Of a stretch of 64,000 bases of DNA, positions 14,602 through 46,206 are shown piece by piece. The translations under genes and the position numbers were made by a program. Positions within the stretch are counted from its first letter, which is position 1. Every line of letters starts with the position of its first letter. The notes below the pieces were generated by a model, which saw nothing but the letters and a program-made list of their open reading frames with translations, searched no databases and was not told the origin of the DNA. This DNA is from Hyphomicrobium sp. (GTDB taxonomy: Bacteria; Pseudomonadota; Alphaproteobacteria; Rhizobiales; Hyphomicrobiaceae). The DNA lies in the NCBI GenBank assembly GCA_013141015.1, contig JABFRT010000029.1, positions 1-64,000 of the forward strand, given 5' to 3'.

Positions 14602-14635
14602 GAAGCCGCCCCTCACCGGGCGGCTTCTTTGTTTT
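14602..14635 (+). terminator. Intrinsic terminator of porin 2
   Basis: 10-bp stem GAAGCCGCCC/GGGCGGCTTC with a 6-base loop, followed by TTTGTTTT. The hairpin sequence is related to that of porin 1, as expected from duplication. Confidence 0.92.
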
Positions 14636-14642
14636 GAAAATT

Positions 14643-14672
14643 GTCATTCCGGGGCTTGTCCCCGGAATCCAG
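14643..14672 (+). repeat. Palindromic element, left copy flanking GIY-YIG gene
   Basis: A 30-base palindrome starting GTCATTCCGGGG and closing CCCCGGAATCCAG. Its inverted partner lies at 15017-15045, so the pair brackets the GIY-YIG gene. The same end motif (GTCATYCC) delimits the 176-bp repeats at 45814 and 46031. Confidence 0.85.
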
Positions 14673-14691
14673 TTTGCGGCATACTCCGTTT

Positions 14692-15003
14692 ATGAAGTCG
14701 TACTGGGTCTATATTCTGGCGAGTGCGCCGCGCGGCACGCTATACGTCGGCGTCACCAATGGCCTCATTCGTCGAATTGATGAGCATCGCGCAGGCACTG
14801 CTTCCATCTTCACGCGCCGCTATAAAGTCACCTTGCTCGTCTGGTTTCAGGAATTTGCAGATGTGCGAGAAGCTATTCAGCGGGAAAAGACAATCAAGGA
14901 TTGGCGCCGCGATTGGAAAGTCAATCTCATTGAGCGCGAGAACCCGAATTGGGTCGATCTATATCCCACGCTGCCGGGCGTCTCGCCAAATGCGCAGCTC
15001 TGA
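14692..15003 (+). CDS. GIY-YIG nuclease-domain protein between inverted palindromes
   Basis: 103 aa from the ATG at 14692; the open frame reaches back into the palindrome, so the later start is preferred. The domain begins at once: WVYIL (the GIY-equivalent strand), TLYVGVTN (YIG-equivalent), then RRIDEHRAG with the conserved Arg and His, REAIQREKTIKDW with the metal-binding Glu, and NPNWVDLY. This is the short UPF0213/YhbQ-like single-domain form of the GIY-YIG family, whose members cut DNA in homing, repair and restriction contexts. Its bracketing by two inverted palindromes, with almost no other sequence, suggests gene and palindromes form one unit. DNA cleavage is inferred from family only. 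Confidence 0.88.
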   Translation: MKSYWVYILASAPRGTLYVGVTNGLIRRIDEHRAGTASIFTRRYKVTLLVWFQEFADVREAIQREKTIKDWRRDWKVNLIERENPNWVDLYPTLPGVSPNAQL

Positions 15004-15016
15004 GCTTGCTGCCACA

Positions 15017-15045
15017 TGGATCCCGGGAACGAGTCCCGGGATGAC
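15017..15045 (-). repeat. Palindromic element, right copy flanking GIY-YIG gene
   Basis: TGGATCCCGGG...CCCGGGATGAC, the inverted counterpart of the element at 14643. Together they delimit a 403-bp block (14643-15045). The right end stops 8 bases before the ATG of the VWA gene, leaving that gene without a visible Shine-Dalgarno. Confidence 0.85.
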
Positions 15046-15053
15046 AATCTAAT

Positions 15054-16229
15054 ATGTTCGAAACCTTTTTCCATGAACTGCGCAGCGCCAAGATTCCGGT
15101 CACGCTTAAGGAGTATCTGACGCTCCTTGAAGCTATCGACGCCGGGATCGCACAAGGCCGCGTCGAAGATTTTTATTATTTGTCCCGCGCGGCGCTGGTA
15201 AAAGACGAGCGCAACCTTGATCGTTTCGACCAAGTCTTCGGCCACGTCTTCAAGGGCCTCGAATTGACGGCCGAGGCCATCGAAGCCGCGATCCCCGAGG
15301 ATTGGCTGCGGCGCATGTCCGAGCTGCATCTCTCAGACGAAGACAAAGCCAAAATCGCCGAGCTCGGCGGTTGGGACAAGATCATGGAGGAGCTGCAAAA
15401 GCGCCTCGCTGAACAGAAGGACCGTCATCAGGGCGGCAACAAGTGGATCGGTACGGGCGGCACCTCCCCTTTCGGAGCCTATGGCTACAATCCGGCTGGC
15501 ATCCGAATCGGTCAAAAGGAAAGCCGTCATCGCCGTGCAATAAAGGTCTGGGACAAGCGCGAGTTCAAAGACCTCGCCGGCACCGCCGAAGTCGGCACCC
15601 GCAACATCAAAGTCGCGTTGCGCAAATTGCGCCAGTTCGCGCGCACCGGTGCGCCGTCCGAACTCGATCTTGATTCGACCGTGCGCGGCACCGCTGAACG
15701 TGGCTTTCTCGACATTCACATGCGGCCCGAGCGCCACAATGCCGTTAAGCTGCTGATGTTCTTTGATATTGGCGGCTCAATGGACGACCATATCAAGGAC
15801 GTCGAAGAACTCTTTTCAGCGACCCGTTCAGAGTTCAAGCATCTCGAATATTATTACTTCCACAATTGCCTCTATGAAGGCGTGTGGAAAGACAATGCGC
15901 GGCGCTATACCGGCCGCACTAGCACGTGGCAGGTGCTAAACACCTATCCATCTGATTATAAAGTCATCTTCGTCGGCGACGCGTCGATGAGCCCGTATGA
16001 AATCACGGTTGCGGGCGGCTCGGTCGAGCACATGAACCCAGAGCCCGGCGCGCTGTGGCTCAAGCGCGTTACTGACATCTACAAGCACGCGGTTTGGTTG
16101 AATCCGGTGCCGGAACGCCATTGGGACTGGACGCCGTCCATCGGATTGGTCCGTCAGTTGTTCGCGGGTCGCATGTACCCACTTACTTTGGACGGCCTTG
16201 ATGTTGCAATTCGCACACTGTTGCATTGA
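15054..16229 (+). CDS. CoxE-like VWA-domain protein
   Basis: 391 aa. The N-terminal half (FHELRSAKIPVTLKEYLTLLEAID and following) matches the region preceding the VWA fold in CoxE-type proteins; the C-terminal half is a von Willebrand A fold beginning LLMFFDIGGSMDDH. The metal site reads DIGGS instead of the classical DxSxS, a variant I associate with this subfamily. Such proteins work with MoxR AAA+ ATPases in cofactor insertion or metal-centre maturation. No MoxR gene is next to it; the palindrome-GIY-YIG block lies immediately upstream where a partner would be expected. Function is thus known only by family. Confidence 0.82.
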   Translation: MFETFFHELRSAKIPVTLKEYLTLLEAIDAGIAQGRVEDFYYLSRAALVKDERNLDRFDQVFGHVFKGLELTAEAIEAAIPEDWLRRMSELHLSDEDKAKIAELGGWDKIMEELQKRLAEQKDRHQGGNKWIGTGGTSPFGAYGYNPAGIRIGQKESRHRRAIKVWDKREFKDLAGTAEVGTRNIKVALRKLRQFARTGAPSELDLDSTVRGTAERGFLDIHMRPERHNAVKLLMFFDIGGSMDDHIKDVEELFSATRSEFKHLEYYYFHNCLYEGVWKDNARRYTGRTSTWQVLNTYPSDYKVIFVGDASMSPYEITVAGGSVEHMNPEPGALWLKRVTDIYKHAVWLNPVPERHWDWTPSIGLVRQLFAGRMYPLTLDGLDVAIRTLLH

Positions 16230-45813: not shown

Positions 45814-45989
45814 GTCATCCCGTTGCCGCGCATCGCATGCGCGGTGTCACGAACGGGATCCAGACAAGTGTCTGTGGGGCATGAAACCACCGGCCTGCGA
45901 TAATCAAACGCTCCCTTGCCAACTGATGCCTGGATGGATCCCCGCCTGCCGTGCGTTCGGCAAGGTCGCTATCGCGACGCGGGGATGAC
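45814..45989 (+). repeat. 176-bp palindrome-ended repeat, copy A
   Basis: Begins GTCATCCCGTTGCC and ends GCGGGGATGAC. The left 50 bases (45814-45863) and the right 55 (45935-45989) are each palindromic, with inner ends GGGATCCAG and TGGATCCCC, the same arrangement as the pair flanking the GIY-YIG gene. Copy B lies 41 bases downstream in direct orientation with the same length and only scattered differences. No gene is inside. Confidence 0.9.
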
Positions 45990-46030: not shown

Positions 46031-46206
46031 GTCATCCCGTTGCCGCGCATCGCATGCGCGGTGTCACGAACGGGATCCAGACAAGCGTCTGTGGGGCACA
46101 AAACCACCGGCCTGCGATGATCAAACGCTTCTTCGCCAACTGATGCCTGTTTGGATCCCCGCCTGCCGTGCGTTCGGCAAGGTCGCTATCGCGACGCGGG
46201 GATGAC
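46031..46206 (+). repeat. 176-bp palindrome-ended repeat, copy B
   Basis: Same length and end motifs as copy A; palindromes at 46031-46080 and 46152-46206. Differences are mostly in the 70-base spacer between the palindromes, so the palindromes are the conserved part. Confidence 0.9.

Follow-up and report, generated by a model that had tools for sequence, protein, structure and literature searches.

The sections used here of a survey by Di Nocera, De Gregorio, Rocco 2013 (PMC3733652) describe REPs of the CGTC class as hairpins with an unpaired (C/T)GTC tag, a stem of 8-9 bp that opens with AT, a loop of 4-5 nt and a CCA tail, which often form inverted dimers and occur mainly in alphaproteobacteria. 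According to the same sections, CGTC-class REPs "apparently lack a dedicated transposase", and the agent of their spreading is left open (PMC3733652). In a second described system, the REPtrons, inverted REPs enclose a single small enzyme gene, and gene-free REPs and REP dimers are dispersed in the genome; the enzyme (RAYT, or TnpA-REP) is an HUH (Y1) tyrosine transposase, and the repeats carry a GTAG tag. A third system is said to exist in Neisseria, for which Chenal et al. reportedly described, in Nature Communications in 2025, site-specific single-stranded GIY-YIG nucleases (Ssn) and their NTS repeats; Ssn is reported to cut single strands at the NTS palindrome, and the Ssn/NTS system is reported to modulate natural transformation.

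The locus analysed here lies in a 64-kb stretch of DNA from Hyphomicrobium sp. (the window) and, as far as can be judged from sequence, is taken to be Ssn-like in its enzyme and REPtron-like in its layout. As in the Ssn nucleases, the protein is small and stand-alone, with a GIY-YIG domain and intact catalytic residues, and its type is likewise associated with an apparently cognate palindromic repeat that is dispersed in the genome; to read the locus as a mobile unit bounded by REPs is to go further than the Ssn work reportedly did. The locus also has the arrangement of REPtrons, in which a small enzyme gene is enclosed by inverted REPs and gene-free REPs and dimers are dispersed, whereas the GIY-YIG nuclease and the TGTC (CGTC-class) tag take the place of the HUH transposase and the GTAG tag. 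GIY-YIG homing endonucleases and UPF0213/YhbQ-type proteins have the same catalytic fold (PF01541) as the window protein, but no intron and no interrupted target are apparent at the locus, where both REPs are whole.

A homologue in Neisseria gonorrhoeae, which is 46.9% identical to the window protein over residues 6-96, has hairpins of the CGTCATTCCCGCGCAGGCGGGAATCC type on both sides, and these belong to the same REP class. We take the gonococcal gene to be ssn, and its flanking hairpins are presumably dRS3/NTS. The original prediction knew of no described system of this form; this has become doubtful, since the Ssn nucleases with their palindromic NTS sites, as reported, come close, and the Neisseria homologue is flanked in the same way. 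A literature search for a link between GIY-YIG genes and REPs, the coverage of which did not extend to the Ssn work, found no description.

The block, its hairpins and its protein

The arrangement that had been described for the 403-bp block, a hairpin followed by a GIY-YIG gene and an inverted hairpin, was confirmed (Table 1). The left REP has the tag (T)GTC, a 9-bp stem (ATTCCGGGG/CCCCGGAAT), the 5-nt loop CTTGT and the tail CCAG. Both hairpins of the block fit the published CGTC class by their sequence, with the same tag (here TGTC), a stem of 9 bp that opens with AT, a loop of 5 nt and a CCA tail, the comparison being with those sections of the survey that are used here (PMC3733652). Both tags point outward, away from the gene, and outside the hairpins the inverted match runs on to ATTGTCAT/ATGACAAT; the inverted alignment of the two flanks scored 19.5 against a threshold of 13 (99.9% of shuffles).

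Table 1. Positions of the REP-gene-REP unit, its neighbours and the gene-free elements in the window
Feature	Position	Strand	Remarks
Whole REP-gene-REP unit	14643..15045		403 bp
Left CGTC-class REP	14643..14672	+	GTCATTCCGGGGCTTGTCCCCGGAATCCAG
Right CGTC-class REP, inverted	15017..15045	-	TGGATCCCGGGAACGAGTCCCGGGATGAC; reverse complement GTCATCCCGGGACTCGTTCCCGGGATCCA
GIY-YIG nuclease gene, Ssn-like type, 103 aa	14692..15003 including stop	+	ATG 14692, TGA 15003
Terminator-like hairpin of the upstream gene; insertion-site context	14602..14627	+	Gene porin-like, by eye
Conserved 391-aa gene marking the insertion site	15054..16229	+	Present in 22/22 genus genomes
176-bp gene-free element	45814..45989		Inverted pair of larger CGTC-tagged hairpins, different stems
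Second, tandem copy of the 176-bp element	46031..46206		Starts 217 bp apart

REPs of the CGTC type are multicopy in the own genome, inverted pairs included, as judged from matches to the pattern GTCATYCCN{10,40}GGAWCCA, which was found 26 times compared with once for a reversed control. The pattern catches the right hairpin of the block and misses the left one (GGAATCCA). An alignment of 29-mer REPs of the own genome (n=17, 11 distinct) was drawn from the 17 loci that have a 29-nt pattern match: 15 of them were used together with the window's right hairpin, which stands for L026, and the window's left hairpin was added; L024, also a 29-nt match, was excluded. In this alignment 97% of the cells pair, and the stem covariation was 0.347 compared with 0.100 in shuffles (0/500 reached the observed value), while two of five covariation measures were weak, namely pairs changed on both sides (7/500) and further pair types (341/500). 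Because the cells pair at this level and covariation exceeds that of the shuffles, the hairpin appears to have been kept via compensating changes.

It should be noted that stable G+C-rich hairpins near the two ends of a small gene could simply be transcription terminators. This explanation was rejected as extremely improbable: the hairpins form sequence families with a conserved unpaired tag and tail that are scattered through the genome, they are matched across the gene and to the protein type, and T runs are absent after the hairpins of the block. A search of the window against Rfam at gathering thresholds gave no match, and a known Rfam RNA was therefore rejected as their identity. No target-site duplication was found at the block ends, where the flanks are AAAATT and AATCTA (one site only). 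The unit ends 8 nt from the start codon of the next gene (window 15045-15054), and in most relatives the distance from terminator to start codon at the same junction is 61-155 nt; the leader of the 391-aa gene may have been replaced.

The two 176-bp elements, which are alike at 167 of 176 positions, had been proposed to be non-autonomous derivatives of the unit. The motifs stated for them are present, GTCATCCC as the tag and GGATCCA(G) as the tail, but the stems and loops are unlike those of the block, so that the elements are not deletion derivatives of the unit and belong to a common superfamily without being close copies. Closer gene-free kin of the block are 29-nt hairpins elsewhere in the genome, among which are four inverted pairs 60-94 bp apart. 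In three other genomes (G023, G024 and G026) the starts of the two REPs are 61 bp apart in many inverted pairs, which suggests that the dimer has a fixed form and a spacer of 32 bp.

The window protein matches PF01541 with an E value of 1.6e-15, and GIY-YIG is its sole Pfam hit; an NCBIfam search with the protein at E 0.01 returned no family. Its predicted structure has a pLDDT of 94.3, and structures of UPF0213 (1zg2) and Slx1 are among the best structural matches of the predicted fold. Residues Y7, Y18, R28, H32, E65, K69 and N84 are conserved in 165-169 of 169 homologues, and dN/dS was 0.05-0.29 in 13 gene pairs, comparisons which show that the protein is under purifying selection and that its predicted catalytic residues are intact. 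The own genome has four GIY-YIG genes of the window type, a UPF0213-like one (L004) and one long GIY-YIG gene, which by eye we take to be UvrC. A profile of the four matched in 63/103 genomes of the family, 123/289 of the class and 213/398 of the phylum, tallies that count weak UPF0213-type hits too. Carriage by phages was rejected on the basis of a single, distant match to the window-type protein in 50,697 phage records.

Enclosure of the gene in other genomes

Bracketing was assessed with a motif-free test, in which the 250 bp upstream of a gene were aligned with the reverse complement of the 250 bp downstream and the cut-off was set at 99.9% of shuffles. Inverted matching flanks were found for 72 of 113 genes of the window type, compared with 4 of the 715 other genes that the 60 regions concerned contain, and 38 of 55 genes were bracketed in a second set from the class and phylum, which consisted of the best hits of a search and was not a random sample; the remaining 41/113 and 17/55 failed the test. 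The gene type is therefore usually flanked by palindromes, as had been supposed. In the comparison with other short genes that the original prediction had proposed, a bracket was found for 1 of 72 such genes that have intergenic space to the left and right, and the explanation that the bracket is an ordinary trait of short intergenic genes was rejected. The same applies to the idea that it is a trait of all small GIY-YIG genes, since only 2 of 20 UPF0213-type GIY-YIG genes of similar size passed, unlike those of the window type. These comparisons of flanks show that enclosure is, by this measure, typical of the window protein type.

Two properties of the test affect how these counts are to be read. 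Randomly mispaired flanks of different genes passed in 12.6% of cases, and the direct-orientation flank score was raised as well (64/113), because palindromes match both ways. Tags pointed outward in 43/68 and 26/39 two-sided cases, compared with 19/63 in other genes; only this contrast counts, because the hairpin detector was loose and fired at one or both sides of 310 of the 715 control genes. All six named loci chosen from 33 plasmid records passed the bracket test; they are from Neisseria gonorrhoeae, Novosphingobium, Azospirillum, Sinorhizobium, Planktothrix and Spirosoma.

Several individual loci deserve mention. The second copy in the own genome (L002; contig 28, about 75.05-78.27 kb) lies between inverted REPs, and one of its flanking hairpins is split by an insertion sequence that is IS30-like by eye. 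Another copy of the own genome (L005, contig 30) is flanked by long repeats in direct orientation, which are in turn composite elements of a CGTC-like kind. On Azospirillum lipoferum AZO_p3, a REP-bracketed GIY-YIG gene (L348) sits within the suf operon, in the gap between sufB and sufC, and at L135 (G095, contig 51) two adjacent gene copies in tandem encode proteins that are 96.9% identical. The Neisseria gonorrhoeae record NZ_CP119142.1 of 2.17 Mb is labelled a plasmid, but its size suggests a chromosome.

The type of the repeat was also compared with that of the protein. Within genomes, the two flanks of one gene matched each other better than the flanks of other copies in 48 of 69 cases (p 1.8e-6). 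Protein identity and REP similarity were correlated with a rho of 0.41 (2492 unrelated-site pairs of 72 bracketed loci), whereas shuffling the REPs within the same genome gave a mean rho of 0.24 and a maximum of 0.35, and 0/500 shuffles reached 0.41. These similarities show that protein and REP types, so measured, go together, a covariation that joint travel without recognition could explain.

The number of REPs follows the presence of the gene as well. The median number of pattern matches was 20 in 58 genomes with the gene and 3 in 45 genomes without it, genes being counted as profile hits with at least 58 bits, and the Spearman correlation of REP count with gene presence was 0.54 (within-genus permutation p 0.0008); for the 79 genomes with at least 90% completeness it was 0.48 (p 0.004). 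There are exceptions in both directions, seven genomes that lack the gene having 21-80 REP copies and nine gene-bearing genomes having at most 4 matches. Nevertheless, the proposed relation between palindrome number and the gene was borne out, and together with the general bracketing this association supports the supposed link between the GIY-YIG type and the palindromes.

GTAG REPs are moved or processed by RAYTs according to the literature, and a Y1 tyrosine transposase might move CGTC REPs and the enclosed gene in the same way; the own genome contains one weak PF01797 gene. This explanation was rejected and is very improbable. Genes with PF01797 (Y1/RAYT-type) occur in no more than 14 of the 103 genomes of the family and in 1 of the 22 of the genus, the median REP count of these 14 genomes is 4.5, and genus genomes that lack PF01797 reach 103 pattern matches. 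In addition, of 13 PF01797 loci that were tried, 9 were testable, and CGTC tags were found beside none of these, while 4 of the 9 have inverted flanks of another kind.

Possible relocation and empty sites

The closest view of a possible relocation is given by L103 in a genome of another genus (G023), the protein of which is 72% identical to the window protein. DNA homology between the two blocks coincides at both ends, to within 1 nt, with the outer edges of the REPs, and on the 10.7-kb contig of L103 the nuclease is the only frame (at least 80 aa) that matches the window. Homology likewise extends from REP edge to REP edge in L034/L103 and L061/L072, whereas in L108/L126, two copies of one genome, the common block stops at the end of the right REP but on the left reaches about 39 nt beyond the tag. 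In 182 unrelated-site pairs homology never extended more than 300 bp beyond the gene, although the extensions stopped within 8 nt of a detected tag in only 17 of 39 cases on the left and 6 of 25 on the right. The alignments of the window block with L103, of L034/L103 and of L061/L072 show the homology of copies at unrelated sites to end at REP edges, a coincidence that supports the earlier suggestion of a self-contained travelling unit. On the other hand, inheritance in place predominates among close copies, since 18 of 24 pairs with at least 80% identity have common flanking genes.

The original prediction had proposed to look for empty sites, and at the site of the window the block was indeed missing in all relatives that could be read. 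The upstream side of the 391-aa gene was readable in 20 of 21 relatives, and a nuclease gene was present at the site in 0/20, absence being judged by comparing the places of nuclease hits and 391-aa gene hits. Within this sample the block is therefore confined to the lineage of the window. No CGTC tag was found at the site in 19 of the 20; in the remaining one (G007, L183) the two genes that enclose the unit in the window have a lone CGTC REP with a different type of stem between them. At another site, two genomes (G016 and G006) have the order REP, gene, inverted REP, REP, and a third (G003), which lacks genes of this type, has just one REP there, joined to the same outer sequence on the right. 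The difference between G003 and G016 is either an insertion at a REP or, equally, a loss between direct REPs. The site of L060 has variable contents in six relatives and no clean empty allele.

These observations also bear on the alternative that the gene is passive cargo, i.e., that REP-rich intergenic DNA gathers and exchanges small genes by homologous recombination and that the protein is unrelated to the palindromes. The REPs are located in intergenic DNA, the contents of the L060 site differ in relatives, and recombination between direct REPs would explain the difference between G003 and G016, all of which would be expected of such a process. However, brackets are rare both around the other short intergenic genes of these regions and around UPF0213-type GIY-YIG genes of similar size, and the REP type tracks the protein type beyond within-genome shuffles, so that we regard passive carriage as unlikely.

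A further alternative is that the nuclease serves the host as a guardian or in the control of DNA uptake, cutting REP-bearing single strands that enter the cell or arise at forks and thereby limiting or shaping DNA exchange, while the spread of the REPs would have a different cause and the flanking copies would serve to protect or regulate the gene. A host-useful function would fit the purifying selection, and the reported influence of Ssn/NTS on natural transformation in Neisseria points in the same direction. But the gene set is patchy, multi-copy, partly broken and apparently relocated within REP boundaries, and therefore looks selfish, which makes this explanation, taken alone, quite unlikely. 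It should be noted that a guardian role and a mobile unit are compatible.

A possible partner enzyme of CGTC-class REPs

From sequence comparisons, we consider it probable that the block is a REP-bounded Ssn-type unit, the protein of which recognises its own hairpin in single strands, and that it is moved by REP-REP recombination or repair. The nuclease would recognise its REP hairpin in single-stranded DNA, either on the lagging strand or in incoming DNA, and would nick it, and host repair or REP-to-REP recombination would then copy or delete the module of REPs and gene. The dispersed satellites of such units would be the gene-free REPs, both single and paired. The unit would therefore have for CGTC REPs the role that RAYT genes have for GTAG REPs, but its enzyme would work by another chemistry.

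In the sections used here, the published survey of CGTC REPs links no transposase gene to them (PMC3733652), whereas in the genomes analysed here a nuclease gene is systematically enclosed, and this nuclease may be the partner enzyme that is missing for the class in that survey. Tentatively, one might go further and regard CGTC REPs in general as satellites of REP-bounded Ssn-type genes, i.e., as parts of a broad mobile class that occurs in several phyla and spreads with no transposase, a site-specific single-strand nuclease cutting the REP hairpin and host repair or REP-to-REP recombination providing the joining step; we hold this possible, but would not yet call it probable.

CGTC REPs are widespread, and an enclosed gene with a matching repeat type makes the question of their spread directly testable. 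The finding ties these repeats to a nuclease family that reportedly cuts single-stranded DNA at particular palindromes. If the nuclease indeed drives the spread, bacteria would have a mobile element that is free of a transposase, and the REP type of each genome would predict the cutting site of its nuclease.
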